From a virus: a stretch of 64,000 nt of DNA. Below are positions 27,221 through 45,628 of the stretch, piece by piece; position 1 is the first letter of the stretch, and the number at the start of each line of letters is the position of its first letter. Below the pieces are notes generated by a model. That model did not search any database and was not told the origin of the DNA. It saw nothing but the letters and a program-made list of their open reading frames with translations. The stretch lies in the IMG/VR virus record IMGVR_UViG_3300046820_002290, positions 27,973 through 91,972 of that record; one strand, written 5' to 3'. The position numbers were made by a program, and so were the translations under genes.

Positions 27221-27727
27221 ATGGCAACGAACAAAGTTACACCCATTCAAGTCCTTCGGTCTGAAGTCCTTAACAAACGCCCCGATCCAACTAAAATGTT
27301 GGCGGGGCAACCTGCGGTAAATATTGCCGCCGCACAACCGGGTTTATTTTTTGCCGATGACACTGGCAACGCCCTCTTCAAGGTGGGGCCTTGCACTGTA
27401 GGCACATTGCCCCCGAATGACCCTTTGATCGCCCCTGTTGGGGCCCCCGGTAACACGGTTGGAGAACTTTGGTTGGACCTGAACGGAGACCCCCCGTTGT
27501 TCCCAGGCCCTGTGCTTAAGGTCTGGGATGGTGTTAACTGGGTCAACTGCTTCCCGTCGCCAACGATTTACGCAACTCCGATTATCTCAGATACGGCACC
27601 CGCTCTGGTTTCCCATCCAAATGGGACTCTGTGGTGGGACTCAAGTAGCGGTCTCATGTATATTCTTTACCAAGATACCGCTGGAACACGCCAGTGGACA
27701 CAAGTTTCTGGCAACCCCGTGCCTTGA
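27221..27727 (+). CDS. Fibre-type virion protein, short
   Basis: A 168-residue probable virion component. The N-terminus (VLRSEVLNKRPDPTKMLAGQ, then PGLFFADDTGNALFKVGP) is a short version of the attachment region of the preceding giant protein. Two LW(W/L)D modules follow, GELWLDLNG and GTLWWDSSSGLMYILYQD, each ending in a Trp strand. No C-terminal receptor-binding domain is present, so it may be an adaptor or a minimal fibre. The start ATG lies 49 bases after the promoter element, and the gene ends four bases before another. Confidence 0.7.
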   Translation: MATNKVTPIQVLRSEVLNKRPDPTKMLAGQPAVNIAAAQPGLFFADDTGNALFKVGPCTVGTLPPNDPLIAPVGAPGNTVGELWLDLNGDPPLFPGPVLKVWDGVNWVNCFPSPTIYATPIISDTAPALVSHPNGTLWWDSSSGLMYILYQDTAGTRQWTQVSGNPVP

Positions 27728-27769: not shown

Positions 27770-30700
27770 ATGGCCGGCATCCCCCCGTTTAATTCACAGG
27801 ATCCAATCCCAAACACTCCCTTTTATAACCCTGACGCAAACCGTTATAACCTGTCCTACCCAACAGGACAACTGGTCTTTGGTAGCTATTTGTTTGTAGA
27901 CTACACGACTGGTAACGTATATATTTCCCCCAACCCTCCAAATAACGGTACTGTCCGGCAAGTTACTGCTGGTGCAGGTCTTGAGACATCCCCTGCCTCG
28001 GGTATCACAACTGCTGGAAGCATCGGTCTTAAGGCGATTTCAACTTTAACTCCGGGATCCTACACCTATCCGACCGTGGCGGTGAACGGATATGGTCAAA
28101 TCACCCTGGCCGCTAACGGTAATCCTCCGCTGGTTACCCTGGTAGGCACCGCCCCCATTTACGTTACCGGTACAAACCCGATCCGCAACGTAGGGATCCT
28201 GCAAGCAAGTCTTGCTGCTCCCGGCGCAGTGCAGCTGACGGATGACGTATTTTCGACAAGTACAATCACGGCTCTTACCGCACTCCAGGGATACAGCCTG
28301 GGGTCCCAAATGTCGATCATCGGGTCTTCTTTGGCAGGGCAGTATTTTGCTGGTGCCATCAACCCTGCGACAGGGAATCTCACTTTCGTTTCCCCTGATG
28401 GATTAGCAGCGGGTGGTCTAACAGTTGGAAGTCCTCTTCCTGCTGCCTCAGCAACTTACAAGAAAGCCTACTTCACCATTACAGCAGACGGCACATACAC
28501 ACCCCCTGGCGGTGTTGCCACAGCGGTGGTAAAGAACGACCGTGTTTACTGCATCAACAACACTTGGCAGATTATTCTCTGCGGGCAGCGCCTTGTACCC
28601 GCATCCACCACGGTATTCGGCACAACAGTACTTTCTACCGCTGCTGAAGTCCAAGCTCTCACTGAACCCAACAAATCTGTTACTCCGGCTGGTCTCACCA
28701 TTATGGTAGCTTCGGAGACCCAGGTAGGTTTTGTCGAGCTTGCTACCGACGCTGAGACTCAGGCATTTACCGACAACACTCGTGCAATCACGTCCTCAAA
28801 CCTCGGAACTCTCAATGCAACTACCGCCACTCGTGGACTTGTTCTTCTAAGTGACTCGGTTTCGGACCCGTCGGTGACAAGCGCACCGACCGCAAACGCT
28901 CTGAAGACATATGTTGATTCCTCGCTAGATACTGCCACGGTAACAGCCAAAGGCGATCTGATTGTTGGTCTCGGATTTGAGACCCCCGGTATTCTCCCTC
29001 TGGGCGACAACGGTTCGGTTCTTACCGTTGACGATACCAAGCCCACGCAAGGAAGCATGGACTGGACTAGCCGTGATTCCCTTAACTCCTGGCCCGTAGG
29101 TTCTATTATTTGGCAACTGGCTACCACCCCCCTTGGCGGCGTGTGGATGGAGTGCGACGGTCGCCTTCTCGACGCAAGCATCACAGGGCCTTACTACAAC
29201 CTTTACGAGCTAATCGGTACCACTTACAACCAACCTGGCGACGCTGCTGGTTTCTTCCGAGTTCCTGATCTTCGCGGCATGTTCGTTCGTGGCTGGAGCG
29301 GTGCGGGCCCCAACCCCGTTCCAACGGCTCTCGACCCTGCTCGTACATTTGCCAGCACACAGAGCAGTGCGTACAAGCAGCACCTGCACACGGTCACTGA
29401 TCCTGGTCACATTCACGACTTTGACCTCATTCAGCACCAGCACACGAGCAATTCTTCGACTGTTCAACACCTTCACGGTGCAACTAGCAACCATTCCCAC
29501 AATCTCGACGGATTTCCGAATGCGGAAGTTGTAGGAGATCAAGCGGGATATTACGATGGAAACGCACAGTGGGGGGCCCCTTCGGGACCAAATTCAAACA
29601 GCCCGACAACAGGTATTATTGTTAATAACTCTCTTACCGGTATAACTCTTCAGAGTAAAGTTACAGGTATTACGGTTAACACCGTAACCACCGGCCTCAC
29701 CGTTGACAACTCTCCCCCGACGGCTCCAGTACCTGACGAGACTCGCCCCTACAACATTGCCCTGCTCCCTGTAATCAAGTACGGCAACGTTCCTGCTGGC
29801 CCTACGCCGCCTACGCCAACACCCCCCGTTCCGACTTACGTCGTCAATACAACGCCTACGGCAGCTACCGAAAATACCGTTATCACGACGACCATCACAA
29901 CAGCCAACGTGTCGAATGGCACTACCCTGTACTGGCAAATGTCAGGAACGGGGATCGTTGGCGCATTCTTCACCTCTGGCAGCTTAGTCGGAAGCACCAC
30001 GGTTGCAGCAAATTCCGCCTCGTTCACTCAAACTCTGGCTGCCTCGCTGCCTGGACCGGGCCCTTACACCCTGTCTATCGACATTTACTCCGATTCCGCA
30101 CGCTCCGTGCAGGTGGGTACCACCAGCCTTGTAATCGCGATTACACCTGGCGTAACCCCGAGTACACCTCAACTCGGTTCTTACATCGACCTTTGGCAGT
30201 ATCGAAACACAGACGCTACCTATCCGTTCACAGCAAACAGCGGCCTCAACCCTGTTGTTCGTGCAAGTAACATCTCTGCCAATGCTCTGTCCTTGTTGAA
30301 CAAGTTCTACCTGCTGGCTGAAGTTCAAATCAATGGACTTGACAGCAAGCTTTACTTCGGTGCCCCAACAGGGTTCCCTGCCGCTGCGCAAGTTCTCAAC
30401 GCCGCTGGCACAGACTGGAACACCAACACCGGTAGTGCTAACGGCACCTATGTGAGCCCCACAAACCCTGATTACACCTACTCGGCTTGGGCTCTCAAGA
30501 ACACGAATGCCTACATGGATACCCAGTCGGTCTCTAAGGCTAACTTTATGTTGTCAATCGGCGGTTACAACCTGTCCAATAACATGGACCTGGCAGGTGC
30601 AAGTGTAGCCCAGGCAAATGCCGCCGCTGCTCAAATCGTTACCCTGATGAACCTTTGCGGTGCCAAAGGTGTCGACATTGACTACGAACCGGTGGGCATC

Positions 30701-31426
30701 ACTTGTAACCCTGCGCGTATGGCAACGCTGATGCAAGCCATTTACAACGCTGTCAAGGCTTACAACGCTTCCTACGAGGTTCATCTGACTCTGATTCCGT
30801 CCCTGTCGGTTGCTGACCCTGACCTGAAGATTGCTACCGCAGTCGCCTGCCAAGCTTACGCCGACCAAATCAACGTTATGACTTACGATGATCCTAGTAA
30901 TCTCAGTCAGCCTCTGTATGAACCCGGTGGAGTCACTGTTTACAACCATACTGGCGTAGCCCGCTCGGTTCAAAGTATTCAGTGGTTCATCGACGCCGGT
31001 GTCTCCCGCTCGAAGCTTGGTATGGGTATTGCCCAGTACGGCCGCAATACCTCCAATCCTTCGGCTGCATTCAACGCTGCTAACCCAGTGCCTTACAGCC
31101 AGATTGTTGCCTCGGCAAATGCCGCTGGTCAAATCACAAACTCCTTCCCTCTTGGCCGCTACTTCGGTGCCGTCAAGATTCAAAACCCTGCCCCAACAAA
31201 TCAAACCGACTACTACAGCCCCACTTACACAGCCCTCTGGGGCTTCGACTCGGTGGACACCATCCAAGACAAGGTCGAGTCCGCTTCGGATATGGGTCTC
31301 CGTGCCGTGTTTACCTGGCAGATCTCCAACGACTACGCCGATCCCGCATCGCCGAATCCCCCCGGAGACGCACGAGCCAACTTCGCTCTGCTTGCCGCCG
31401 CCCGCGACGCCATCACGAATCTGTAA
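27770..31426 (+). CDS. Tail collar fibre with C-terminal GH18 (chitinase-like) domain
   Basis: Predicted tail fibre of 1218 residues carrying a polysaccharide-active domain. Residues 1-50 hold the array's common anchor (DPIPNTPFYNP). Fibre repeats follow to about 435. A tail collar domain occupies about 440-540 (PVGSIIWQLA, ECDGRLLD, FFRVPDLRGMFVRGW), then His-x-His metal-binding repeats to about 580. A proline-rich linker (PAGPTPPTPTPPVPTY) and an Ig-like segment lead to residues 803-1218, which resemble glycoside hydrolase family 18: LSIGGY, GVDIDYEP with the DxDxE catalytic core, INVMTYDD, GMGIAQYGR and AVFTWQIS. The first Asp of the DGxDxDxE signature is Lys here. It would cleave beta-1,4-linked N-acetylhexosamine glycans outside the host cell. 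Confidence 0.8.
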   Translation: MAGIPPFNSQDPIPNTPFYNPDANRYNLSYPTGQLVFGSYLFVDYTTGNVYISPNPPNNGTVRQVTAGAGLETSPASGITTAGSIGLKAISTLTPGSYTYPTVAVNGYGQITLAANGNPPLVTLVGTAPIYVTGTNPIRNVGILQASLAAPGAVQLTDDVFSTSTITALTALQGYSLGSQMSIIGSSLAGQYFAGAINPATGNLTFVSPDGLAAGGLTVGSPLPAASATYKKAYFTITADGTYTPPGGVATAVVKNDRVYCINNTWQIILCGQRLVPASTTVFGTTVLSTAAEVQALTEPNKSVTPAGLTIMVASETQVGFVELATDAETQAFTDNTRAITSSNLGTLNATTATRGLVLLSDSVSDPSVTSAPTANALKTYVDSSLDTATVTAKGDLIVGLGFETPGILPLGDNGSVLTVDDTKPTQGSMDWTSRDSLNSWPVGSIIWQLATTPLGGVWMECDGRLLDASITGPYYNLYELIGTTYNQPGDAAGFFRVPDLRGMFVRGWSGAGPNPVPTALDPARTFASTQSSAYKQHLHTVTDPGHIHDFDLIQHQHTSNSSTVQHLHGATSNHSHNLDGFPNAEVVGDQAGYYDGNAQWGAPSGPNSNSPTTGIIVNNSLTGITLQSKVTGITVNTVTTGLTVDNSPPTAPVPDETRPYNIALLPVIKYGNVPAGPTPPTPTPPVPTYVVNTTPTAATENTVITTTITTANVSNGTTLYWQMSGTGIVGAFFTSGSLVGSTTVAANSASFTQTLAASLPGPGPYTLSIDIYSDSARSVQVGTTSLVIAITPGVTPSTPQLGSYIDLWQYRNTDATYPFTANSGLNPVVRASNISANALSLLNKFYLLAEVQINGLDSKLYFGAPTGFPAAAQVLNAAGTDWNTNTGSANGTYVSPTNPDYTYSAWALKNTNAYMDTQSVSKANFMLSIGGYNLSNNMDLAGASVAQANAAAAQIVTLMNLCGAKGVDIDYEPVGITCNPARMATLMQAIYNAVKAYNASYEVHLTLIPSLSVADPDLKIATAVACQAYADQINVMTYDDPSNLSQPLYEPGGVTVYNHTGVARSVQSIQWFIDAGVSRSKLGMGIAQYGRNTSNPSAAFNAANPVPYSQIVASANAAGQITNSFPLGRYFGAVKIQNPAPTNQTDYYSPTYTALWGFDSVDTIQDKVESASDMGLRAVFTWQISNDYADPASPNPPGDARANFALLAAARDAITNL

Positions 31427-31429
31427 ACC

Positions 31430-31438
31430 GGGTAAAAC
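31430..31438 (+). promoter_or_regulatory. Putative late promoter element GGGTAAAAC
   Basis: GGGTAAAACCCCTTAAC, three bases after a stop and 33 bases before the next fibre start. Confidence 0.6.
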
Positions 31439-31471
31439 CCCTTAACTTGCCTCCTCAACGATATAACGAAC

Positions 31472-33490
31472 ATGGCCATCGTTCCGTTTAACCCTAATAA
31501 CGAAGTCATCCCGATTCCCAATAACCCGTTTTATTGGCCCCAAGAATCGGCGTTCCAGACCCCGCAAGGTCCCCTTATCTTTGGGGCAGGCTTCTCCGTT
31601 GATTACAATACCGGTGTCGTAAGTGTTGATCCGGCACCTCCGGCGTCCACGGGTACGGTAACTTCTGTTACCGCTGGCGCTGGCTTGATCACAAGTCCTT
31701 TCGCCGGTATTACAACAGTCGGTCAAGTTTCGCTCGCAACTGTCCCCGGCGTTGTTCCCGGAACTTACACTTATGCGGCGTTTAGTGTTGACTCTTATGG
31801 CCGCATCACATCGGCTGCAAGTGGAGTAGCTCCCGTTCAAACACTAAGTGGAATCTACCCAATCAACGTTACTGGAGCTGCGCCCTCCCTTACTGTATCA
31901 ATCGCTGCCGGAACTACCGCAAACGCGGGTGCCGTTCAGCTGGTTGACAACGTAAGCACCCCGTCCAACACACTCGCCCTGACTGCCAACCAAGGGTACC
32001 TTCTTCAAAACCAAATCAACGCAATTGCTGGAACAGCCAACATCCAATTCCTGGCTGGTACTCTCAACGCTGCCACAGGTAATGTTGTTACTGCGACTGC
32101 CGAAGGTAACACCGCAGGCATCTTGGCTGGTAGTCCCCTGCCTGCCGCAAGCGGCACAAACATCGGTGCTACTCTCCTGATTACAACTGCCGCCACCTAC
32201 ACACCTCCTGGCGGTACTGCGGTTAGCGTAGTTCCTGGCGACCAACTCCTGAGCGACGGCACAAACTGGGTTTACTTCCAGACCGGTTTCCGTGCTCCTT
32301 ACGCCACCACCACCACTGCCGGCATCGTTCGTTACGCCACTGTTGCTGAGACACAGGCACTGGCCGATAATACCATTGCCGTGACACCTTTTGGTCTGTC
32401 CGGAATGGTTGCCTCGACCACTCAGCGTGGTTTCGTTGAGTTGGCTGACGCTGCAGAGACTCAACTGCTTGCCGACACCACTCGTGCTGTCACCCCTGCA
32501 GGACTCGGTACTCTTCAGGCTACCACAACTTCTCGCGGTATCGTTCAACTGAATGATACACTGACAAGCACTTCGACCACGCTGGCCCCAACTGCTCGTG
32601 CGCTCAAACAAGCTTTCGATGAGTCGATTCACAATAACATTATTCAAGCTAACGGCGATCTAATCGTTGGCCAAGCTGCTGCAGACCCTCAAATCCTTCC
32701 AAAGGGTTCGAACGGTCAGGTTCTCACGGTAGACAATACCGCTTCCTTGGGTGTATCTTGGCAGACGCCAATCGCCCCTGAGTCCACTCCGGTTGGCTCG
32801 GTGTGCTGGTTCACAACTGATGATCCTGCCAAGCTCCCCGTGGGCTGGTTGGTTGCAGATGGCTCTTCTTACGGTGTTGACTCTTCCAACCCCTACTATC
32901 CGCTGTACCAAGTAATCGGTACAACTTTCACCCCTCCCGCCGATCCTCCGGGAACTTTCCGTGTCCCCGATCTTCGCGGTCAGTTCATTCGTGGTTGGAA
33001 CGACGCCGGCACTCAAGGTCCTGGAAACCTGGATCCCGGTCGTGCTTTTGGCTCCTGTCAAGCAGACGCCTATCAACAGCACTCACACTCGGTAACTGAT
33101 CCTGGCCACATCCACGCGATTACTGATCCGGGCCACAACCACCTTATTACTGATCCTGGGCATACGCACACTGTTACCGATCCCGGTCATAGCCACCAGT
33201 TCAATGTCCCCAACTCCGAAGTTGTGGGCGATCAAGCTGGCTTCTACGACGGTAACAACAAGCGAGGGAACAGAGGTGCGGGCACTACAAACAGCAGTGC
33301 AAATGTTTCTATCAACAACGCAACAACAGGCGTGACAATCAACACCGCTCTCACCGGTATCACCCAAACAATCATCTGCACCACTGGACTCACAGTTAAT
33401 AACTCTCCCGCCAGCGCTCCGGTTCCCAACGAGACTCGTCCTACAAACTTCTCACTACTCCCTATCATCAAGTACCGGGATCCTGTCTGA
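31472..33490 (+). CDS. Tail collar fibre with DPGHxH repeats
   Basis: Predicted tail fibre of 672 residues, a shorter relative of the preceding protein without the hydrolase. The anchor is IPIPNNPFYWP. A linker repeat (GTVTSVTAGAGL, SVDSYGRITSA) and fibre modules lead to a tail collar domain at about 440-535 (PVGSVCWFTT, FRVPDLRGQFIRGW). Five H-x-H pairs follow, four in a regular TDPGHxH series at about 538-575, of the kind that binds iron or zinc along the axis of trimeric fibres. The C-terminus PVPNETRPTNFSLLPIIKYR is the same ending that precedes the proline linker in the GH18 fibre, so the hydrolase looks like an addition. Confidence 0.82.
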   Translation: MAIVPFNPNNEVIPIPNNPFYWPQESAFQTPQGPLIFGAGFSVDYNTGVVSVDPAPPASTGTVTSVTAGAGLITSPFAGITTVGQVSLATVPGVVPGTYTYAAFSVDSYGRITSAASGVAPVQTLSGIYPINVTGAAPSLTVSIAAGTTANAGAVQLVDNVSTPSNTLALTANQGYLLQNQINAIAGTANIQFLAGTLNAATGNVVTATAEGNTAGILAGSPLPAASGTNIGATLLITTAATYTPPGGTAVSVVPGDQLLSDGTNWVYFQTGFRAPYATTTTAGIVRYATVAETQALADNTIAVTPFGLSGMVASTTQRGFVELADAAETQLLADTTRAVTPAGLGTLQATTTSRGIVQLNDTLTSTSTTLAPTARALKQAFDESIHNNIIQANGDLIVGQAAADPQILPKGSNGQVLTVDNTASLGVSWQTPIAPESTPVGSVCWFTTDDPAKLPVGWLVADGSSYGVDSSNPYYPLYQVIGTTFTPPADPPGTFRVPDLRGQFIRGWNDAGTQGPGNLDPGRAFGSCQADAYQQHSHSVTDPGHIHAITDPGHNHLITDPGHTHTVTDPGHSHQFNVPNSEVVGDQAGFYDGNNKRGNRGAGTTNSSANVSINNATTGVTINTALTGITQTIICTTGLTVNNSPASAPVPNETRPTNFSLLPIIKYRDPV

Positions 33491-33511
33491 TTAGCCCGAA
33501 CCCCAAACCAC

Positions 33512-33520
33512 GGGTAAAAC
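33512..33520 (+). promoter_or_regulatory. Putative late promoter element GGGTAAAAC
   Basis: Exact GGGTAAAACC, 21 bases after the preceding stop and 28 before the ATG chosen for the next fibre. Confidence 0.55.
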
Positions 33521-33548
33521 CAGTCAAGCTGAAGATTTGGTCGTCACT

Positions 33549-35867
33549 ATGCCCGCCTTACCCGTTGATTTCGATCCGTACAATCCGATTCCAAACGGAC
33601 CGTTTTACTCCCCCCTAACCTATTACCTGCAAGGTCCGGTTGGCCCTTTGGTAGTTGGTTCGGGTCTGTCCGTCAGTCTGCAAGGTGTAATCAGTGCCAC
33701 CGGTGGTGGCGGTGGTGGTGGCACAGTGACTTCCATCACTGCCGGCCTAGGTCTGACCGGCGGAACCATCACTGGCTCGGGAACTATCAGCCTTGCTCCT
33801 AGCGGCGTGGTCGCTGGCGCTTACACCTACCCTGCGCTTTCGGTAGACTCTTTCGGGCGTATTACGTCCATCATGAGTGGCAGCCCCGTTACCAGCATCT
33901 CTGCTAGCGTTCCCCTGCTTCTGACTGGCTCCCCCACTTCCCCAACTATTTCGATCCAGCCTGCGTCTACTTCGCAAACAGGATCCGTACAACTCAATAA
34001 TACGACCACCAGCACCCTTACCAACCAAGCCCTGACCGCTGCTGCTGGTAAGAGCCTGCAAGATCAAATCAATGCCGTTGCACAAAATGCCAACGGCCTG
34101 GTTCTGGCTGGCACTCTAAACGCTGCTACTGGCAATGTTGCCAACGCAACTACCGCTGGCGTTTCCGCTGGTTTTACCGCTGGTTCCCCTGTTCCCGCTG
34201 CTTCGCCGGCAATCAATGATTACTATGTAATCGTCACCACTGCTGCCGCTTCTTATACTCCGACTGGCGGAGCTACCATCACTGGCGTAAACGTTGGTGA
34301 CTACATCCTGTGCTCCAGCGGCGCTTGGACCATCCTGCGTGTCGGACCCATCACAGGTGCTTACGCCACAACAACCACCGCTGGTGTGGTTGAACTGGCG
34401 ACCTCCGCTGAGGCCATCACCGGTACCGATCCAAACGCAGTTCTGACTCCGTTCACTGGTACTGCTACTTACGTTGCCCGTAAGTGCTTCACCGGTCCTG
34501 GTCAGATTCTGGCAAGTAACGGTAACGCAACTTATGCCGCTCTTGGATCGGGCATTGACGGTCAAGTTTTGACCGCTGACTCTTCCGCTCCCCTCGGCGT
34601 CAAGTGGGCACCTGGTGGTGGTGGTGGTGGTGCCAGCATTAACATGAGCTTCCTGGCTCCGATCACTGGTACTACCAACCCCTACAGTGGTGGCGTCGTG
34701 GCAGTAGGTATCAATACTGCCTCCACAACTGCTCTGGGTGCTGTCCAGCTAGCTGACACTGCCGCCACTCAAGCTGGTGTATCTCCTTCCCTTGTGGTAA
34801 CTTCGCTGGGCGCAGCAAGCACTTACATCCCTTTCTGCGACTTTACGGCAAAAGGTCAACTGATTGTCGCCTCAGGTCCCAATGCTTACGCCATGGAGCC
34901 TCCTGGTGCTGACGGTCTGGCTCTGGTGGCTTGCGCCGCTTGCGCCAATGGCGTTACTTATGCCAACCCTCTGGCTGTTGCGACTCCCTCTACTCTTGGT
35001 GCGTTCAAAGGATTCGCTGCCGGTACCGGTGGCAACCTGTCCCTTGGTGGCTCCGCTCTAGCCGGCATCGGCGCTGGTGTCGCTAACACTGCCCTCGGTG
35101 TTCAATCTGCCACCACCCTTACCACCGGTAACGGTAACACCGTAGTTGGTAATGGCGCTCTTGCTCTTGATACCACCGGTAGCTGCAACGTGGCGATGGG
35201 TGTTTGCGCCCTTTACTCCACTGTTGGCGGCGAAGGTAACACCGCTCTTGGTACCGGCGCTGGCGCCACGATGACCAGCGGTGACTTCAACGTTCTGATT
35301 GGTTTCTGCGCAGGTGACGTAGTAACTACGGGTTGTTACAACATCGCCATCGGTGCCAACGCAATGGGCACCACGGCCACAACCGGTTGCAATAACGTTC
35401 TGGTTGGCTGCGGCGCCGGTAACAACGTCACCACCCAGAGCAATCAGATTGTCATCGGTGCGGGCAACTCCTGCACAACAGGAACCGCAAACGGCGGCGC
35501 AACATTCGCGTTCGGCGGTGGTTGCTCCATCTATGCCGCAGCTCAAGCTGCTGGCACAGCCGTCTGGACTTCTGTGTCCGACCAAAGCCTAAAGGAAGAC
35601 GTTGCTGACTTGGCGCTGGGCCTCGACTTTGTGGGTCAGCTTCAGCCACGCACCTACACCTGGAAGGCAGACGGTGGCAAGTCCGCTGGTTTCATCGCTC
35701 AGGAAGCTGCTGCTGTTGTAGATGCTCACGGCGCCGATTATCTCGGTTTCGTTGACAAGTCTAACGAACTCTGGGGTGTTGGTCCTGCCGCTCTCATTCC
35801 AGTCCTGGTGAATGCCATCAAGGAACTGAAGGCCGAAGTAGATGAACTGAAAGCCAAACTTGGCTGA
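33549..35867 (+). CDS. Tail fibre with YadA-like repeats and S74 intramolecular chaperone
   Basis: Predicted self-trimerising fibre of 772 residues. The anchor NPIPNGPFYSP and a Gly loop (ATGGGGGGGGTV) start it. GIVQLN-like and GQVLTADSSAPLGVKWA modules fill the middle, and GNTALGTGAG-type YadA-head repeats run from about 507 to 640, with several Cys. The final 100 residues are a peptidase S74 domain: VSDQSLKEDVADL with the Ser and Lys of the self-cleavage dyad, LQPRTYTW, GFIAQEAA and a terminal coiled coil (ELKAEVDELKAKLG). The domain folds the trimer and then cuts itself off. The ATG is preferred over a TTG four codons upstream. Confidence 0.88.
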   Translation: MPALPVDFDPYNPIPNGPFYSPLTYYLQGPVGPLVVGSGLSVSLQGVISATGGGGGGGTVTSITAGLGLTGGTITGSGTISLAPSGVVAGAYTYPALSVDSFGRITSIMSGSPVTSISASVPLLLTGSPTSPTISIQPASTSQTGSVQLNNTTTSTLTNQALTAAAGKSLQDQINAVAQNANGLVLAGTLNAATGNVANATTAGVSAGFTAGSPVPAASPAINDYYVIVTTAAASYTPTGGATITGVNVGDYILCSSGAWTILRVGPITGAYATTTTAGVVELATSAEAITGTDPNAVLTPFTGTATYVARKCFTGPGQILASNGNATYAALGSGIDGQVLTADSSAPLGVKWAPGGGGGGASINMSFLAPITGTTNPYSGGVVAVGINTASTTALGAVQLADTAATQAGVSPSLVVTSLGAASTYIPFCDFTAKGQLIVASGPNAYAMEPPGADGLALVACAACANGVTYANPLAVATPSTLGAFKGFAAGTGGNLSLGGSALAGIGAGVANTALGVQSATTLTTGNGNTVVGNGALALDTTGSCNVAMGVCALYSTVGGEGNTALGTGAGATMTSGDFNVLIGFCAGDVVTTGCYNIAIGANAMGTTATTGCNNVLVGCGAGNNVTTQSNQIVIGAGNSCTTGTANGGATFAFGGGCSIYAAAQAAGTAVWTSVSDQSLKEDVADLALGLDFVGQLQPRTYTWKADGGKSAGFIAQEAAAVVDAHGADYLGFVDKSNELWGVGPAALIPVLVNAIKELKAEVDELKAKLG

Positions 35868-35889
35868 GTGCAAATAAAATAAGAAAGAC

Positions 35890-35913
35890 GGGGAGGGAAA
35901 CCTCCCCATTTTT
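35890..35913 (+). terminator. Intrinsic terminator
   Basis: GGGGAGG, loop GAAA, CCTCCCC, then ATTTTT. The seven-base perfect stem with a GNRA loop lies just after the S74 fibre gene. Confidence 0.88.
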
Positions 35914-35925
35914 GTAGATAGCAAC

Positions 35926-35934
35926 GGGTAAAAC
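35926..35934 (+). promoter_or_regulatory. Putative late promoter element GGGTAAAAC
   Basis: GGGTAAAACCAGTTATAC, immediately after the terminator and 24 bases before the ATG. The terminator-promoter pair marks an independent fibre unit. Confidence 0.6.
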
Positions 35935-35958
35935 CAGTTATACGAACTTGTGGTGACT

Positions 35959-38900
35959 ATGGCGCTTCCGATTCGCCCGAACAACCCAAACATCCCCATT
36001 CCAAACAGCACGTTTTCTTCTCCGTTAAATCTATATGTATCGGGGCCATACTTCCCGGTGGTCATGGGTACGGGAATTGACATCAATAATAATTCCAAAG
36101 TAGCCGACCTCAATAACGCAGGCCTTCTTGAGTTCAACGGGGCTGTCGGAGATGTCAACTTATTAGCAGGCCCCGGAATCGCTGTTACCGAAAACGGCGG
36201 AGACTTTACGATCGACAACATCGGCGTTTTGGGCCTTGTAGCTGGAGGAAACGTCCAGATTTCCGAAAGTAACGGAATATACACAATTAGTGCAAGCGAT
36301 GCTCAAACAGGAACCGTAACTTCTGTTGGCACAGGAGTTGGGCTTACTGGAGGGCCCATCACCACTTCCGGCACAATTTCTCTCGATGTTTCCGGAGTTA
36401 CCGCTGGTTCCTACACCTACCCTAACATCACGGTTGATGCTTACGGTCGTGTTACCGTCGCGTCTAACGGCGTTACTCCCCTAACTGCGATTAACGGCAC
36501 AGCACCTGTTCAAATCACGGGGACTGCCCCGACCCTGAATGTCGCCGTTGCAAATGCAAGCACGGTAGCCCCTGGTGTTGTTCAACTTAACGACACAACC
36601 ACAAGTACCTCTACAACCCAGGCACTCACGGCAGCCCAAGGTAAGAACCTTCAAGATCAAATTGATGCTCTCCCTGGCGGAACTGTTACCAGCGTTACCG
36701 CAGGGACTGGCTTGTCTGGGGGGACGATCACAACGTCTGGAACCATTGACCTGGCAAATACGGCAGTAACCGCAGGTTCATACACAAACGGTTCTTTCAC
36801 AGTAGACGCCCAGGGGCGCCTTACTGCTGCTTCAAGTGGGACTCCCCCCGTCACCGCAGTTACCGGTACTGCTCCGATCGTTTCCACCGGCGGTTCAACT
36901 CCTGCCATTTCTCTTGCCAATACCGCAGTAACTCCTGGATCTTACACCAACGGCTCGTTTACTGTTGACGCTCAGGGGAGACTCACCGCTGCCTCTAGCG
37001 GCACTGCTCCCGTCACCGCAGTAACTGGAACCTCCCCCATAGCAGTAACTGCCGGAGCTACGCCCGTTGTTAGCATCGCTGCAGCCTCAACAACTGCCGC
37101 TGGCGCTGTTCAGCTGAACAACACAACCTCAAGCACGTCTACTTCGCTTGCTTTGACTGCGGCTCAAGGTAAGAGTTTGCAAGATCAAATCACTGCTCTT
37201 TCGGTTTCGTCTAACATTATACTTGGAGGGACATACAACGCCAATACCGGTGTTGTTGACAGCGTGACTGCCCAGGGCACCACTGCTGGACTTGTCGTTG
37301 GAAATGCCCTTCCCGCAGCATCCCCTGCTAACAACGAAATTTTCGTAATCGTTGACGTCCAGGGTTCCACGGGTCCTTCCGGCACTCCTCCGTATCACGT
37401 CGGAGACTGGTACCTGTCTGATGGCACCACCTGGCAGTTCCTTAACGTAGGGTATCAACCAGGTCAGGCCACCACTCTGTCTCAAGGCACGGTGCAGCTT
37501 GCTACGAATGCTCAAGTTCAAGCAGGGACCGACTCCAGCAATGCTGTAGTTTCCTCCTCGCTCCAGAGTAAACTATCCGATAGCGTCTCCACAGTTTCCT
37601 CAACAACTATCGCCTCTAGCACAGCTGTGAAGACAGCCAACGATGCTGCAGCGGCCGCTCAGGGCGACGCAACTCAAGCCCTGGCTGATGCCGCAAGTGC
37701 CCAGGCAACTGCTGACGCCGCACTGCCTCTGGCTGGCGGATCGATGACCGGTGACATCACTTTCAATGCCGGCCAAACTTTCCCAGGCACCGTTGGCGAT
37801 CTCGACTTCCAGGCAAAGGGTGACCTGATTTCTGGGTTCGGGGTTAACTCTTTTGGAATCACAGCGGTAGGTGCAAATGGCCAAGTTCTCTCGGCTAACT
37901 CAGCTTGCGCGTCCGGACTGGAATGGACTACCCCTAGCAGTGGACCTTCCCCCGCGACCCCTACGGTAGCAGGATTGCTGACAGGTTGCGCCGATGGTGT
38001 CCTGAGCACAACTGCAGTCGGTAACAACGCACTCTTGTCCCTGACTAACGGCGTTTGCAACACGGCCATTGGTTTAGACGCCGCTTGCAGCCTTACGACG
38101 GCCTCGGATAACACGGCTTTAGGATCTTCCGCACTTTGCTCAGTCACTACCGAAGGCGAAAACACGGCAGTGGGTGCCCGAGCTTTGATTCTTACCTCCG
38201 GAGGCAGCAACAGTTCTTTAGGCTCACGCGCAGGGCGGTGTATAACAACAGGGTACGGAAACACGGCAGCCGGCAGGTCTGCTCTGGAGTATACTTGTGG
38301 AGGAAACTATAACTCTGGCTTTGGTTTAAGCGCCCTTCGTAATGCTTGCGGTAGCTATAACGCTGCAATAGGTTATCAGGCGGGATACAAGTCCGACGGT
38401 GACTACAACGTCTTCATTGGCGTAGATTCCGGCACTCAACTATTGACAGGTGCTTGCAACATTTTCATCGGTTACAATACGGGTCTCAGCGTAACCAGCG
38501 GGTGTGATAACGTTATCATTGGCCCTAACGTAGACCCGGGCGCAGACGTGAGTCAGTGCTTGTTAATCGGAACCGGAACATACAACTGGCTGAGCGGCGA
38601 CTCCACTGGTGCGGTAAAGCCTGGCGCGGGCGTTATTGATTGCTCAGGGTCGTGCGGAACATCCGGCCAGGTCCTGATGTCCAACGGCAGCAATGCCATT
38701 TGCTGGGGAACAGTGACAAGTTGCCCAGGAACCGTAACTTCAGTCACCGCTGGCACTGGCTTGACTGGAGGAACCATTACCTCTTCTGGAACAGTAGCCC
38801 TCGACACTACTTGTGTTATTCAACCTTCGGCCCTCACCGCAAAAGGCGACATCATCACCGCCACCGCTGCAAGCACACCAACGGCTCTCGGAGTTGGCAC

Positions 38901-39393
38901 AAATGGCCAAGTTCTGACCGCTTGCTCGGCTTGCTCCACGGGCCTTGTCTGGGCCACTCCGACAGGCGGAAGCAGCCCGGTAGAGACATACAACACACTG
39001 ATCACATTCAACCCTGGTGATAACAACCAGGCTATCATCGGGTGGGAGTCCGAGCGAGGGGGCAGCGAGAGCTATCTCCTCTCGGGCAATGTATCCGCGA
39101 TGGCCTACATTACCATTGGCAGTGGGACTAACGGGGCCACCCCCGAAGCGTGGGCGATGATTATGATTTCATCGATGGGGGGAGAAGGGTTGTCTCAAAT
39201 AATTGCTCAAGACAACACCGGAGGTAACTTCTACATTATGCCTTGGGTGTACCCGGCCTTCAGCGATACAACTATTGTGTATACTCCTCAGCCCTCTGTC
39301 ACTGTGGCTACAACCTACATTGCAAACGTGTCTCTAAACTGGTTCGGAGGATTCCGTTACCAGCCTATCGTCTACGGAACCCCTGCATCATGA
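35959..39393 (+). CDS. Large tail fibre with YadA-like repeats, no S74 domain
   Basis: Predicted fibre of 1144 residues. The anchor is IPIPNSTFSSP. It carries repeated linker modules of the type GTVTSVTAGTGLTGG, NGSFTVDAQGRLTAASSG (duplicated) and LQSKLSDSVS, one PLAGGSMTGDITF unit, and Cys-bearing GNTAVGARAL repeats from about 680 to 870. A second linker set (GQVLTACSACSTGLVWATP) leads to a distinct 115-residue C-terminal domain rich in Gly, Ser and Trp (IGWESERGGSESYLLSGN) that I do not recognise and that probably binds the receptor. The ATG is preferred over a GTG three codons upstream. Its TGA overlaps the next ATG. Confidence 0.82.
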   Translation: MALPIRPNNPNIPIPNSTFSSPLNLYVSGPYFPVVMGTGIDINNNSKVADLNNAGLLEFNGAVGDVNLLAGPGIAVTENGGDFTIDNIGVLGLVAGGNVQISESNGIYTISASDAQTGTVTSVGTGVGLTGGPITTSGTISLDVSGVTAGSYTYPNITVDAYGRVTVASNGVTPLTAINGTAPVQITGTAPTLNVAVANASTVAPGVVQLNDTTTSTSTTQALTAAQGKNLQDQIDALPGGTVTSVTAGTGLSGGTITTSGTIDLANTAVTAGSYTNGSFTVDAQGRLTAASSGTPPVTAVTGTAPIVSTGGSTPAISLANTAVTPGSYTNGSFTVDAQGRLTAASSGTAPVTAVTGTSPIAVTAGATPVVSIAAASTTAAGAVQLNNTTSSTSTSLALTAAQGKSLQDQITALSVSSNIILGGTYNANTGVVDSVTAQGTTAGLVVGNALPAASPANNEIFVIVDVQGSTGPSGTPPYHVGDWYLSDGTTWQFLNVGYQPGQATTLSQGTVQLATNAQVQAGTDSSNAVVSSSLQSKLSDSVSTVSSTTIASSTAVKTANDAAAAAQGDATQALADAASAQATADAALPLAGGSMTGDITFNAGQTFPGTVGDLDFQAKGDLISGFGVNSFGITAVGANGQVLSANSACASGLEWTTPSSGPSPATPTVAGLLTGCADGVLSTTAVGNNALLSLTNGVCNTAIGLDAACSLTTASDNTALGSSALCSVTTEGENTAVGARALILTSGGSNSSLGSRAGRCITTGYGNTAAGRSALEYTCGGNYNSGFGLSALRNACGSYNAAIGYQAGYKSDGDYNVFIGVDSGTQLLTGACNIFIGYNTGLSVTSGCDNVIIGPNVDPGADVSQCLLIGTGTYNWLSGDSTGAVKPGAGVIDCSGSCGTSGQVLMSNGSNAICWGTVTSCPGTVTSVTAGTGLTGGTITSSGTVALDTTCVIQPSALTAKGDIITATAASTPTALGVGTNGQVLTACSACSTGLVWATPTGGSSPVETYNTLITFNPGDNNQAIIGWESERGGSESYLLSGNVSAMAYITIGSGTNGATPEAWAMIMISSMGGEGLSQIIAQDNTGGNFYIMPWVYPAFSDTTIVYTPQPSVTVATTYIANVSLNWFGGFRYQPIVYGTPAS
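36760..37075 (+). repeat. Duplicated fibre linker module inside one gene
   Basis: Two adjacent, nearly identical copies of a unit of about 60 residues (NTAVTAGSYTNGSFTVDAQG then RLTAASSGTPPVTAVTGT versus NTAVTPGSYTNGSFTVDAQG then RLTAASSGTAPVTAVTGT). Codon choices differ between copies, so the duplication is not very recent. Confidence 0.75.
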
Positions 39394-39959
39394 TCTGGAA
39401 CAACGCCGAGTTTTACACATCCGTCCTAATGGTTGAGCTGGAAAAGAACGTAAAGTTCCAGGACAGCCCCATCGCTCTCTACGGACTTCTCACTTCCTTC
39501 CAAAGTCCCGCTTTCCGTGATTCCACAGTGAGGGATTTTCTGGAGTCTTTCTCGTCGGTGCAAAATAATATCGGCATCGAAATCGACAGAGTAGAAGAAG
39601 TAATCACCAAGCTTCCCGCAATCTTCGTCTTCCCTAACAAAAAACTAAGCCACTCGCAAGTGCTGGAAGTAGTCAACCAACACCTGGAAACACCCTATGA
39701 GCCTGTAAACAAGGACTTCCGTGCCCTGGGATTCTTCCCATCTCGGGAGGGGTGCCCGGTCCGTGAAGTCTCCGCTGAAGGAATCGTTTACAACAACAAA
39801 GAAGTTTATGGTAAAGAAGGGACAGGCGAAATCCCTGAGTGGGGCATTCCCCTGGTGGAAGAAGCAAGCAAGTTCTGTGACGCTAAGTACAACCACTACA
39901 AGGTAACAGATAAACCCCCCACGCAAAAAGTGTACATCCACGCTAACAATCTCTTCTAA
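39390..39959 (+). CDS. Unknown soluble protein coupled to a fibre gene
   Basis: Not recognised. A 189-residue globular-looking protein without fibre repeats: helices with VLMVELEKNVKFQDSPIALY and DFLESFSSVQNNIGIEIDRV, then an EVVNQHLETPYEPVNKDFRA stretch. Its ATG overlaps the stop of the large fibre (ATGA) and it ends two bases before the next fibre gene. It is the only non-fibre frame of this kind between two long fibres, which suggests a dedicated assembly chaperone or capping protein. That is inference from position only. Confidence 0.65.
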   Translation: MIWNNAEFYTSVLMVELEKNVKFQDSPIALYGLLTSFQSPAFRDSTVRDFLESFSSVQNNIGIEIDRVEEVITKLPAIFVFPNKKLSHSQVLEVVNQHLETPYEPVNKDFRALGFFPSREGCPVREVSAEGIVYNNKEVYGKEGTGEIPEWGIPLVEEASKFCDAKYNHYKVTDKPPTQKVYIHANNLF

Positions 39960-39961
39960 CT

Positions 39962-41584
39962 ATGGCTAACTTTAGAATTGGTGGCATCCCGGGCGGCTTC
40001 GACATTTCCGCAGCGGGGGAAATCAGCCCCAGGACCGTACTAGATCAGAACGGGTGTGCCGGAACCGCTGGGCAAGCCCTAACTTCCGATGGACTCGGAG
40101 CACTTACTTGGGCTACAGTTGGTGGCGGTGGTGGTAGTGGCACCGTCACAAGCATTACTGCTGGAACTGGCCTTACTGGGGGAACAATCACAACCTCCGG
40201 CACCATTGCCCTCGATACCGCTTGCGTTCTAAGACCAGCGGATTTCACGGCGAAAGGGCAGCTAATCGTGGGAAATGGCAGCGGTTTCTGCCATGTTCTG
40301 TCCGCTGGCACCAACGGTCAATACCTGGTTGCCAACTCCTCGATCAACCCTGGCGGACTTGTTTGGTGTACATTCCCAGGAATCTGCTCCTCTGCCTACA
40401 CCGCCAAAGGCGCAATCCTGTCCGCCTCCGCTGCCTCCGCCCCATCAGCTCTCGCAGTAGGCGCTAACGGCACGGTACTTACGGCAGACTCAGCGTGTGC
40501 TCTAGGAATAAAATGGGCTGCGGCGGCTGGGGCTTCGGCCGCTACCCCAACAGCTGCTGGAACTGTGTTCGGCTGCACTATGTCTGCAGGGTTGCTTAAC
40601 ACGGCCCTCGGAAACAATGCTCTGGCAGCTCCCGGATCTTTTGGATGCAACACCGCCGTCGGATACTGCGCCTTAGCATCTTCCACCTCTGCATATTTCA
40701 ACACAGCTGTCGGCAACTGTGCTGGAAAAATCGTAAGCGGCACCAACAACACTTTCGTAGGAAACCGTGCTGGCGGTGCTTTTACAGCTGGGGGTTTCAA
40801 CCAAAGTAGTGCAACTGCTATTGGTGCGGGTGCCATGGCAAACTCCACCGGCGCTGGTTCCACAGTCGTAGGGCAGAGCGCAGGAAACTACATGAACGGA
40901 AACTATAACGTCGGTGTAGGGACGTCAGCCCTTCACGGAAGTTTTTCGGGAATGACCGGCGCCTTTAACATCGGCATCGGGGATTTTGCCGGGTGTGGAC
41001 TTTCTACAGGCTGCTGTAACATTGCCATCGGATTCCAAAGTCTGACGGCTGCGGACACCGCTGTGTGTAACACAGGTGTAGGTTTCCAAACTCTTTGTAA
41101 CGTTACCTCTGGAATCAACAACATTGCTATTGGCCCAAACTCAGGCACTGTTATCAGCGGGGACACTAGCGGCATCGTCAACTTGACGACAGAGTCAAAT
41201 CGCATTGTGATGGGCAACTTCAACCACACTTGTGCTCAAATCAAGATTGGCTGGACCGTAACCTCAGACGTTCGCGACAAAGCTATCGACCCTGTAGGAG
41301 TACCTTACGGACTCTCCTTCGTCAAGCAGATTACCCCAATCTCCTACTGCTGGTGTGATCGCACGACCGGTGAAATTACCGAGGATCGGAAACGTTTCGG
41401 ATTCAGTGCCCAAAACATCTGCGCTCTGGAGACCGAAACCGATCACCCTGTCATCGTTAGTGCCGATGACCCCGAGCATCTGATGATTACCGATCAGGCG
41501 CTGCTGCCAGTTCTCGTCAACGCAATCAAGGAACTCTCAGCCAAAGTCGAAGCACTCGAAGCAAAGCTGGCGGCCCACGGGTAA
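39962..41584 (+). CDS. Tail fibre with YadA-like repeats and S74 chaperone (second copy)
   Basis: Predicted self-processing fibre of 540 residues. It lacks the PIPN anchor; instead it starts FRIGGIPGGFDISAAGEISP. Linker modules (GTVTSITAGTGLTGGTITTS, NGQYLVANSSINPGGLVW) lead to Cys-rich NTAVGYCAL-type repeats at about 210-410. The C-terminal S74 domain shows TSDVRDKAIDPV with the Ser/Lys pair at about residue 433, ITPISYCW, FGFSAQNICAL and a final coiled coil (ELSAKVEALEAKLAAHG). It has no GGGTAAAAC element of its own and probably shares transcription with the large fibre upstream. Its stop is the TAA of the next element. Confidence 0.87.
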   Translation: MANFRIGGIPGGFDISAAGEISPRTVLDQNGCAGTAGQALTSDGLGALTWATVGGGGGSGTVTSITAGTGLTGGTITTSGTIALDTACVLRPADFTAKGQLIVGNGSGFCHVLSAGTNGQYLVANSSINPGGLVWCTFPGICSSAYTAKGAILSASAASAPSALAVGANGTVLTADSACALGIKWAAAAGASAATPTAAGTVFGCTMSAGLLNTALGNNALAAPGSFGCNTAVGYCALASSTSAYFNTAVGNCAGKIVSGTNNTFVGNRAGGAFTAGGFNQSSATAIGAGAMANSTGAGSTVVGQSAGNYMNGNYNVGVGTSALHGSFSGMTGAFNIGIGDFAGCGLSTGCCNIAIGFQSLTAADTAVCNTGVGFQTLCNVTSGINNIAIGPNSGTVISGDTSGIVNLTTESNRIVMGNFNHTCAQIKIGWTVTSDVRDKAIDPVGVPYGLSFVKQITPISYCWCDRTTGEITEDRKRFGFSAQNICALETETDHPVIVSADDPEHLMITDQALLPVLVNAIKELSAKVEALEAKLAAHG

Positions 41585-41587
41585 AAC
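41579..41587 (+). promoter_or_regulatory. Putative late promoter element overlapping a stop codon
   Basis: GGGTAAAACCACTTATC; its TAA terminates the S74 fibre gene. It lies 25 bases before the next ATG. Confidence 0.6.
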
Positions 41588-41612
41588 CACTTATCGCTAG
41601 GTAGTTTGTCAG

Positions 41613-42914
41613 ATGGCATTGCCCGTCCCCCCAACACTCAATAATCCCATCCCAAACAACCCATTTTATAGCCTTCCGGCATACATTACCAAGGGTGCGT
41701 ACTACCCGATCACAGTAGGGGCCGGTCTGAGCGTCGATCCCGCCACAGCCGTCATCACCTCAACCGGTGGTGGCGGTGGTGCTGTATCCAGCATTATTGC
41801 TGGGTCGGGAATTAGCGTAAACGCTGCTACAGGCAATGTCACGGTTACCAACACAGGTGTAACAAATATCACCGCAGGCACCGGTATCTCCATCTCTGGC
41901 GGGACCGGTAACGTAACCATCAACTCGCTTACGACCGGGACGGTTCTGGCAGTTAATACTGGCGCTGGCCTTACGGGTGGCCCGATTACCACCTCCGGCA
42001 CCATCGATCTTAGGACCACCGGGGTGGTCCCAGGCACATACACCAACCCCACCCTTAGCGTTGACGGTTACGGTCGGATTTCTTCGGCATTAAACGGAAC
42101 TTCCGTTGGTTCGGTAACTGGTACTCTACCTATTACGGTAACCGCCGGTGCCAACCCCGTCGTGGCAATCAATCCGGCATCCACCGCAAGCTGCGGTGCA
42201 GTCTTGCTTTCGGACGCAGTCAATAGCACATCTTCGGCAACTGCTGCAACATCGTTGGCCGTAAAGACAGCTTACGACATTGCCATCGCAGCCATTCCCA
42301 AGAGTTGCATCACTGGCGTTGGCACCCTGATTACCGGTACCGGCCCGAGCACTCCGGTGGCTCTCCCGGTTGGCACCAACGGGCAGATTCTCGCTGCGTG
42401 TTCTTCCTGCGTTGGCGGCTTGTATTGGGCGAGCACAAATGTGCCCCCGTTTGGCACTCCGAACTACGGCTCCTTCCTTAACACTGGTACCCAGACTATC
42501 GGCACAGTGAACGTGCCGCAACCTGTCACACTCAACACGACTGTTGCCGCAAGCGGATTCACTCTGATCGGTGGCTCTCAAATTACGGCAACAAACGCCG
42601 GTATTTACAATCTTCAGTTTTCAATTCAGCTCGTTGTTACTACCGGTGGTGGCGGCATCGCTGAGATCTGGCTTGTGAAGAACGGGGTTGCAGTGCCGAA
42701 CAGCAATACCCAGTTTGCTGTCAAGAATACTAACGAAGCTGAGTTTGCCGCTCTGAACTTTGTGGAGAGTCTGGCTGCGGGCGATAACTTGCAGCTGTTC
42801 TGGGCTACAGATGACATTCACGTACAACTCATCTCGTATGCTGCGGGCGCCAACTTCGCAGGAGCGCCTGCGATTCCAAGTGCCATTGTCACTGTGGTTC
42901 CAGTCGGCGCCTGA
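41613..42914 (+). CDS. Tail fibre with C-terminal jelly-roll (C1q/TNF-like) domain
   Basis: Predicted fibre of 433 residues. The anchor is NNPIPNNPFYSLP. Linker repeats with GTGISISGGTGN and SVDGYGRISSALNG follow, then one NGQILAACSSCVGGLYWAS module. The last 150 residues have the strand order of a C1q/TNF-like trimeric jelly roll: FTLIGGSQITATNAGIYNLQ, AEIWLVKNGVAVPNSN, FVESLAAGDNLQLFW and IPSAIVTVVPVG. This domain type often binds ligands at fibre tips. The assignment is by pattern. It occupies its own promoter-to-promoter unit. Confidence 0.8.
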   Translation: MALPVPPTLNNPIPNNPFYSLPAYITKGAYYPITVGAGLSVDPATAVITSTGGGGGAVSSIIAGSGISVNAATGNVTVTNTGVTNITAGTGISISGGTGNVTINSLTTGTVLAVNTGAGLTGGPITTSGTIDLRTTGVVPGTYTNPTLSVDGYGRISSALNGTSVGSVTGTLPITVTAGANPVVAINPASTASCGAVLLSDAVNSTSSATAATSLAVKTAYDIAIAAIPKSCITGVGTLITGTGPSTPVALPVGTNGQILAACSSCVGGLYWASTNVPPFGTPNYGSFLNTGTQTIGTVNVPQPVTLNTTVAASGFTLIGGSQITATNAGIYNLQFSIQLVVTTGGGGIAEIWLVKNGVAVPNSNTQFAVKNTNEAEFAALNFVESLAAGDNLQLFWATDDIHVQLISYAAGANFAGAPAIPSAIVTVVPVGA

Positions 42915-42918
42915 TAAC

Positions 42919-42927
42919 GGGTAAAAC
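42919..42927 (+). promoter_or_regulatory. Putative late promoter element GGGTAAAAC
   Basis: GGGTAAAACCAGTTTAC, four bases after a stop and 30 bases before the next ATG. Confidence 0.6.
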
Positions 42928-42957
42928 CAGTTTACGAGGTCGCCCTGTCGCTAGAAG

Positions 42958-44685
42958 ATGTCTTTAATCACTCCCATCCCTAACGGTCCGTTTTATTCTT
43001 CTCCATCGTATTACGTAAACTCTCCCCAGGGCTTCCTCATCGTTGGGAGTGGCCTTTCGGTTGCTCCTGATGGCACCTTGCTATCGGCGTCGAGTGCGGG
43101 TGGTACCGTTACCGGTGTTACCGCTGGCGTCGGCCTCTCGGGTGGCACAATCACTCTCGCAGGCACCATCAACCTGGTTCCCGCCACGAACTCCACTCTC
43201 GGTGGTATCAAGGTCGGTGCCAACCTGATTGTTGCTCCTGACGGTACGCTGTCGGCGTTGCCCCCAGGCACAGGAACTGTAAATAATATTACTCTCGGCA
43301 CAGGACTCATCGGCGGTGGTGGTGGCCCTGTCGTCAACATTTCGTTGGCTCCCGCCTCCAAGACCCAGTTCGGTGGCGTTGTCATCGGTAACGGTATTGA
43401 CGTTGTTGGTGGTTTGATTTCTCTGAGTGCTGCTACCACAGCAGCGGTGGGTGGCGTCCGCCTGGCAACTTCTGCCGAGGTTATTGCTGGTACGGACGCT
43501 AGCAAGGTTGTTACGCCTGCAACTCTGGCGGCAAAGACAGCCACCTTGCTGCGGCCGGGAATCGTACAGCTGTCGGACAGCGTAGCTATCGCTGATAGCA
43601 CCAAGGCTGCCACGCAGACTGCGGCGTTCACTGCAAATGCCGCTGCCGTAGCCGCTCAGGCAACTGCCAACGCAGCGCTGCCAAAAGCTGGCGGGGTGAT
43701 GACTGGCGTCATTACGTTCGCCGCTGGGCAAACATTCCCCGGTGTTGCTTTCCCGGTTGCTACTGCCAACTCGCTCGGTGTAATCTCCGCTGGCCCTGGC
43801 CTATCGGTTAATGCCTCTGGCGTTCTCAGCACGGTCAATAACGGAACTGTAACTGCCGTGACCGCAGGGGAAGGTCTCGGGGCTCCTGCAACTGGTAACA
43901 CCATTTCTACATCGGGCACACTTCGTGTCGTTCCCCCTAGCACAGATGGGACCAAGATTGGGGGTGTGAAGGCTGGCACCAACGTTTCAATTGCCTTTGA
44001 CGGAACCCTTAGCGTCCCTGGCTCCAACTTCATCGCAAGTAATAACCCCTATCTCTTCAATGGCTATGTCTGGCCTGCTCCGTTAGCTTCGCCCTCATTG
44101 CCTTTCCCTGGAGTCAACGGTCAGGTTCTGACTGTTATTGACAATGTTGCGGGGACAATCGGATGGACTAGCACAGGCACTCTGCAGTCGGTTGTTGCTG
44201 GTCCGGGGCTGACCGTCACTTCTACGCCGACAACTGCTACAGTTTCTTTGACGACGGTACCATCTATTACTGCCGGGAATTTTGGTGGGACCACGCTCAT
44301 ACCCACGCTGTCAGTCAATCAGTATGGGCAACTTGTTTCTGTAGGTGAGGCAAATTGTTACCCGCCTTTCCTTCAGGCCACGGTTACGGCTCCGCCTTCG
44401 CTGGTTCTTGACTTCACCACCAATAATACTAATTGGGAATACACTCTGCAAGGAAACACTACAATTATCAACCCCGTAAACGCTCAGTCGGGCCAAACGG
44501 GATATTTACTCCTGCGTCAAAATCCGCTGTCCCCTTACACAGTTACTTGGGACTCAAGCTGGAAGTGGGCTAATTTTGCCCCTTACGCAGGAAACCCTAC
44601 TCTGGCTGCCGTGGACATGATTCAATTCGTGGTTGTTGATCCTAACTATGTCGTTGTTACTGGCCTGATCGAAAACATAGGGTAA
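42958..44685 (+). CDS. Tail fibre of the PIPN-anchor family
   Basis: Predicted fibre of 575 residues. The anchor ITPIPNGPFYSSPSYY starts almost at residue 1. Linker modules (GTVTGVTAGVGLSGGTITLA, NLIVAPDGTLSALPPGTG), a VRLATSAEVIAGTDASKVVT unit and ALPKAGGVMTGVITFAAGQT follow. The C-terminal 110 residues (ATVTAPPSLVLDFTTNNTNW, then NTTIINPVNAQSGQTGYLLL and VDMIQFVVVD) resemble small beta domains found at fibre tips in many phages; receptor binding is inferred. Its stop codon is the TAA of the following element. Confidence 0.8.
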   Translation: MSLITPIPNGPFYSSPSYYVNSPQGFLIVGSGLSVAPDGTLLSASSAGGTVTGVTAGVGLSGGTITLAGTINLVPATNSTLGGIKVGANLIVAPDGTLSALPPGTGTVNNITLGTGLIGGGGGPVVNISLAPASKTQFGGVVIGNGIDVVGGLISLSAATTAAVGGVRLATSAEVIAGTDASKVVTPATLAAKTATLLRPGIVQLSDSVAIADSTKAATQTAAFTANAAAVAAQATANAALPKAGGVMTGVITFAAGQTFPGVAFPVATANSLGVISAGPGLSVNASGVLSTVNNGTVTAVTAGEGLGAPATGNTISTSGTLRVVPPSTDGTKIGGVKAGTNVSIAFDGTLSVPGSNFIASNNPYLFNGYVWPAPLASPSLPFPGVNGQVLTVIDNVAGTIGWTSTGTLQSVVAGPGLTVTSTPTTATVSLTTVPSITAGNFGGTTLIPTLSVNQYGQLVSVGEANCYPPFLQATVTAPPSLVLDFTTNNTNWEYTLQGNTTIINPVNAQSGQTGYLLLRQNPLSPYTVTWDSSWKWANFAPYAGNPTLAAVDMIQFVVVDPNYVVVTGLIENIG

Positions 44686-45579: not shown

Positions 45580-45628
45580 TTTACCAGCGGTCGCATTAAG
45601 CTAAAATCACATTACACATCAGCAACCA

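Follow-up and report, generated by a model that had tools for sequence, protein, structure and literature searches.

Why should the tail fibre of a cyanophage-like virus end in what appears to be a glycoside hydrolase of family 18 (GH18), and is that domain an exchangeable part of the fibre? The question is raised by an open reading frame (positions 27770 to 31426, starting with ATG, 1218 residues) in the window, the 64,000-nucleotide stretch analysed here, which covers bases 27973 to 91972 of a 91,972-base IMG/VR virus record; the window features mapped below, other than the homing-endonuclease-like genes, lie on its plus strand. The encoded protein matches the tail collar fibre family of PHROGs (phrog_910, 3e-27), and in this fibre context residues 446 to 506 (29105 to 29287) match the phage tail collar domain PF07484 above its cut-off (Pfam 5e-11, 42.8 bits, cut-off 24). 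This agrees with the preliminary description, which had seen a GH18-like domain fused to a tail collar fibre within a span (29086 to 31426) that starts shortly upstream of the collar domain and ends at the stop. As also described there, an HxH region and a PT-rich linker precede the GH18 domain. The former, recognized by reading and aligned with a paralogous fibre and with the related contig L159, occupies residues ~537 to 577 (29378 to 29500), and the latter, which forms the module junction, residues ~675 to 690 (29792 to 29839). An Ig-like domain (residues ~690 to 792; 29837 to 30145) and the GH18 catalytic domain (residues 801 to 1218; 30170 to 31423) follow, the latter being the only GH18 domain in the whole record.

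The five peptides from which GH18 had been recognized are all present, in single copy and in the order claimed: LSIGGY at residue 928, GVDIDYEP at 967, INVMTYDD at 1034, GMGIAQYGR at 1084, and AVFTWQIS at 1179. The Glyco_hydro_18 profile (Pfam PF00704) matches residues 910 to 1188 with an E-value of 9e-28 (98.3 bits, cut-off 29.6), which is far above chance level. Sequence searches of the PDB retrieve the chitinases CrChi1 of Clonostachys (3g6l, 1e-11), Chit42 of Trichoderma (6epb, 3e-11), and Chi40 of Streptomyces thermoviolaceus (4w5u), with E-values of 1e-11 to 3e-8 over the three. These enzymes share with the fibre domain the barrel order, the DxDxE, MxYD, and YGR motifs, and the Trp; they differ from it in overall sequence (15 to 20% identity in fold alignments), in the first Asp of the signature, replaced by Lys or Val in the phage proteins, and in the location of the phage domain on a fibre. 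An AlphaFold2 model (529 residues, 24-sequence alignment) has the alternating strands and helices of a (beta/alpha)8 barrel, with only moderate confidence (mean pLDDT 66, below 50 in the beta7-beta8 insertion); the PDB fold matches listed are all GH18 proteins, including the chitinases ChiW, ChiA, and ChiA1 (best E-value 2e-14, TM-scores mostly 0.4 to 0.6). In the alignment with 3g6l and 6epb, the window's KGVDIDYE falls on DGIDVDWE/DGIDIDWE, and the Glu of its DxDxE motif falls on the catalytic Glu of the solved chitinases. That residue is E973; position 971, where it had been placed, is the middle Asp. The GH18 assignment withstands both conditions under which the preliminary description would have given it up, a fold other than a TIM barrel and a DxDxE Glu out of register with the catalytic one.

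Conservation of the active site was followed in five contigs that viral-contig scans recovered, beyond the window's record, with members of the same GH18 clade (L002, L003, L144, L157, and L158), and in 79 cellular GH18s. The window, L157, and L158, the last two scoring 95 to 98 bits against PF00704, all keep D969, D971, and E973 of the catalytic DxDxE (within KGVDIDYE, 30665 to 30688), M1037, Y1039, and D1040 of MTYD (30878 to 30889), Y1090 and R1092 of YGR, which follows strand 7 (31037 to 31045), and W1183, the floor of the -1 subsite (31316 to 31318). L144 keeps the catalytic residues within the part that it covers. This set is invariant or nearly so among the cellular proteins, and the M, Y, and D of MTYD, as well as the Trp, are the same residues in all 79. 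The full DGxDxDxE signature is a different matter: its first Asp is, as previously noted, a Lys in the window (K966), and it is a Val in L157 and L158, so that in this phage clade the position is not conserved, whereas it is Asp in 79 of 79 cellular GH18s, a set gathered with the pattern [DK]G..D.D.E and thus biased in the signature columns. The first Asp is not taken as family-defining here, given the strong profile match and the intact catalytic portion of the signature. The aromatic lining of the chitin cleft is also missing: the W, W, and F that the solved chitinases conserve, and that most cellular GH18s share, correspond to Y933, L1045, and Q1089 in the window and are replaced across the phage clade. 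Our reading is that the catalytic machine has been retained and the sugar-binding cleft changed; with the first Asp and the cleft aromatics lost, activity could be lower or specificity different.

The replaced cleft aromatics make chitin a doubtful substrate. They also bear on the idea that the enzyme lets virions cling to chitinous particles in the habitat of the host, or pass through them, and acts on no polymer of the host itself; true chitinases head both the sequence and the fold matches, but with the aromatics gone clade-wide this appears very improbable. Chitolectins typically lack the catalytic Glu or the middle Asp. A degenerate GH18 that merely binds HexNAc glycans in the manner of a chitolectin, for reversible attachment to the host or to particles, would fit the Lys or Val at the first Asp, the altered cleft, and the Ig-like partner, given that the Hoc-type Ig fold of phages has been linked to mucus adherence. 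However, the DxDxE, MxYD, and Trp are kept in every member that covers the region, and the Ka/Ks values of the Ig-GH18 unit (0.036 between L157 and L158; 0.044 and 0.071 against L144) indicate that it is under strong purifying selection and that the domain has been kept functional, which makes binding alone distinctly unlikely.

How the enzyme is joined to the fibre can be read from the fibre encoded next to it. This paralogous collar fibre (31472 to 33490, 672 residues) lacks the module and serves as an in-genome control: it is 48% identical to the GH18 fibre over 680 aligned positions and, as had been noticed, ends where the linker starts (..NETRPTNFSLLPIIKYRDPV), whereas the GH18 fibre runs on (..DETRPYNIALLPVIKYGNVPAGPTPPTP..). 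The window fibre has the collar domain, fibre repeats, and HxH region in common with T4-type collar or short tail fibres (PHROG 910, PF07484); these normally end past the receptor-binding tip, whereas here ~540 residues are appended. The preliminary description had regarded the linker and the hydrolase as an added module. The addition is borne out, since related phages have the same unit fused to two further carriers; the Ig-like domain, however, had been overlooked, so the appended part includes it as well, between linker and GH18. The Ig-like region is predicted with good pLDDT to form seven strands, a beta-sandwich of the kind found on phage structural proteins. Foldseek searches of viral models match it to a virion protein of cyanophage P-SSM2 (Q58MM8; 42% identity over 104 columns) and to the baseplate hub of S-CAM3, that is, to virion proteins of Prochlorococcus and Synechococcus phages, and a homologous Ig-like domain (30% identity, E-value 3e-9) is encoded elsewhere in the window, at 3633 to 4454. 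We also looked for an orthologue of this fibre that lacks the module; the single orthologue recovered, in L159/L172 (63 to 65% identity), ends with its contig exactly at the junction and hence says nothing on whether the module is present.

The collar fibre is one of three carriers. L002, in which this fusion is repeated, derives from the same virus (100% DNA identity over 17 kb) and may therefore not count as an independent instance. The second carrier is a protein of 161 residues. In the window it is joined to the Ig-like domain, without GH18, in the 273-residue product of positions 3633 to 4454, which has its C terminus at the last Ig strand; L152 to L155 encode the bare 161 residues without Ig, and gp99 of Synechococcus phage S-CBWM1 is a short, bare relative. 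In L003 (7140 to 8249), a protein 71% identical to the window's along all 273 residues continues into GH18, whose start is 79% identical to that of the window over 84 residues before the contig ends, so that this fusion is represented by one contig and by the first 83 to 84 GH18 residues only. An AlphaFold2 model of this carrier was discarded as too poor (pLDDT 55), its fold matches being meaningless. The third carrier is found in L157 (8465 to 10561) and L158 (8189 to 10561), where the carrier protein is followed by linker, Ig, and GH18 and the gene lies immediately upstream of that for the DNA polymerase. Its homologue in the window's own record, C1:4097-4837, outside the window, has 246 residues and no GH18, and the homology extends over the whole length in L158, with the middle segment missing from L157. 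In L144, which like L003 ends inside GH18 at the contig end, the GH18 C terminus likewise lies just upstream of the DNA polymerase, and this contig probably carries Ig-GH18 on the third carrier. The window phage thus has both of these other carriers, neither with GH18, and gene neighbourhood suggests a virion location for each. A separate observation concerns L004, which encodes (10089 to 14030, outside the window) a very long tail sheath of 1313 residues; its middle contains a domain in common with the 246-residue protein and with head-closure families.

The second carrier bears on a possible role as tail lysin. GH18 includes endo-N-acetylglucosaminidases active on peptidoglycan, and a module cutting GlcNAc-MurNAc at DNA entry, comparable to the lysozyme domain of T4 gp5, would be at home in L003, where the carrier gene directly follows one whose product has a weak, sub-threshold match to a phage-baseplate OB domain of the spike type. 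In the window, however, the module terminates a collar fibre, past the HxH region and outside the tube, and its occurrence on differing carriers is better suited to a surface substrate. Because the module tolerates the fibre-end position, an outer glycan is preferred over peptidoglycan, and the lysin explanation is considered unlikely.

The same contigs might be suspected of chimeric assembly, with a single true architecture mimicking a change of carrier, since L003, L144, and L159 stop at or within the module, where assembly graphs would branch. The fusions in the window and in L157/L158, however, are contig-internal, have collinear genes on either side, and originate from separate datasets; their two arrangements use different carriers at different loci, and the Ig-like domain of L003 matches that of its own carrier, not that of the fibre. 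Such an artefact is hardly credible.

Sequence comparisons also show that carrier, Ig, and GH18 have discordant histories, as their identities disagree. Between the window and L144, the DNA polymerases are 88% and the GH18 domains 59% identical, whereas between L144 and L158 the corresponding values are 84% and 88%; between the window and L003, the GH18 N termini are 79% and the Ig-like domains 34% identical, the L003 Ig going with its own carrier. We considered whether L157 and L158 had exchanged GH18 by itself but abandoned this idea, because most of the carrier gene is similarly close (73 to 100% past the first 30 residues); the block of high identity covers most of the carrier gene together with Ig-GH18, so that the exchanged unit was the larger part of the gene rather than a single domain. 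Homing-endonuclease-like genes lie between structural genes in the window (44701 to 45579, 57096 to 57794, and 61264 to 61869) and right behind the second carrier in L152 (10570 to 11283 and 12392 to 12964); those at 57096 and 61264 have NUMOD3 and HNH matches, and the others are GIY-YIG-looking frames judged by eye. It is possible that such genes act as agents of gene exchange.

A tblastn search of 50,697 phage records gave no match at E 1e-5. The signature was present in ~40 stretches when 2.9 million viral contigs were scanned, and 8 of these, not counting the window's, were confirmed above the Pfam cut-off; the pattern GVDIDYEP gave chance matches only, apart from the same virus. Large viral-contig proteins of L056, L060, L061, and L062 (IMG/VR) also include a GH18 signature, below the Pfam cut-off in L061 and L062, and phmmer detected no similarity between their GH18s and the window clade. 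Judged by eye, the partners in these proteins are a GH5-like domain (L060), an SGNH-like domain (L056), and tail-protein-like frames (L061 and L062). Single-sequence searches found no close relatives in bacterial genomes, and alignment searches gave GH18s ~21 to 31% identical at best. In the tree, a long branch leads to the phage clade and no clear donor emerges; therefore no origin is claimed.

The virus itself has no DNA similarity to known phages at the megablast level. Its terminase and DNA polymerase are 56% and 58% identical to those of S-CBWM1, and gene order is common to both, from which we infer a cyanobacterial host. Homologues of S-CBWM1 gp117 (27221 to 27727; 43% identity) and gp118 (46651 to 47148; 42% identity) border an island of ~19 kb that is missing from S-CBWM1 at that site and consists mainly of fibre genes. 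Most fibres of this island (27770 to 46600) have a short N-terminal motif, ..IPNxPFYxP.., which suggests that several adhesins, as alternatives or mounted together, attach at a single site. The exact 10-mer GGGTAAAACC occurs 15 times in the window (0.19 expected), on the plus strand only and 11 to 32 bases upstream of listed gene starts, at 2253, 18870, 21617, 27731, 31430, 33512, 35926, 41579, 42919, 44680, 46622, 50576, 52433, 53913, and 61877, thus on both flanks of the GH18 fibre gene. L003, L152 to L155, L158, and L159 contain it too, as does, in one copy, the part of S-CBWM1 examined; it is a candidate late promoter or processing element.

A host-glycan depolymerase role for the fibre GH18 is plausible, and we consider it rather probable that the domain acts as a virion-displayed depolymerase on a host-surface N-acetylhexosamine glycan and forms an exchangeable module at the C terminus of its carrier. 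The evidence for the fold and for module swapping is good; activity, substrate, and host we infer. Fusion to a fibre protein speaks for presence in the virion, and the T4-type collar fibre of this S-CBWM1-related myovirus would anchor the linker-Ig-GH18 module on the virion, with the Ig-like domain as a spacer and possibly a weak glycan binder. The GH18 domain would hydrolyse the glycan, thereby opening a path to the cell, by the substrate-assisted mechanism usual for GH18 enzymes, in which E973 would be the acid/base, D971 would orient the N-acetyl group, and Y1039 and D1040 would stabilize the oxazoline. Found also on two other, unrelated carriers, Ig-GH18 behaves as a swappable enzyme unit, which would have been exchanged among a collar fibre (window), a baseplate-adjacent protein (L003), and a structural protein encoded upstream of the polymerase (L157/L158). 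Tentatively, it might even be an itinerant cassette that, within one phage lineage, moves among non-homologous virion proteins and works wherever it is displayed, selection favouring its presence on the particle and not specifically at the adhesin tip.

A GH18-like depolymerase on a phage particle is already known. The capsule depolymerase TP84_26 of Geobacillus phage TP-84 is reported to have a GH18-like C-terminal domain and was found in purified virions by Western blot (PMC10131341). The likeness, a phage protein with a GH18-like C terminus, is one of description; the TP-84 host is a Gram-positive thermophile, unlike the probable cyanobacterial host here, and the passages on TP84_26 consulted make no mention of a collar fibre fusion, an Ig-like spacer, or a change of carrier. 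A prophage has been reported to contain a putative chitinase gene (PMC11788074), and receptor-binding proteins are known to shuffle their domains (PMC10684548). Tailspike and tail-fibre depolymerases likewise combine an enzyme with an adhesin and undergo modular exchange, with Ig-like domains among the shuffled parts, whereas here one GH18 module is found on three non-homologous, probable virion proteins of one phage lineage. Two features are new within the open-access literature searched: a GH18 domain joined to a T4-type collar fibre in a cyanophage-like virus, and the switch of that domain from one carrier to other, non-homologous ones.

If the module is active, cyanophage-like viruses gain a recognizable enzyme for cutting glycans, with a fold that phage particles seldom display. 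The three-carrier pattern amounts to a natural experiment on whether such an enzyme is needed at the fibre tip or anywhere on the particle, and the GH18 domain is a defined tool with which to identify its HexNAc glycan target.
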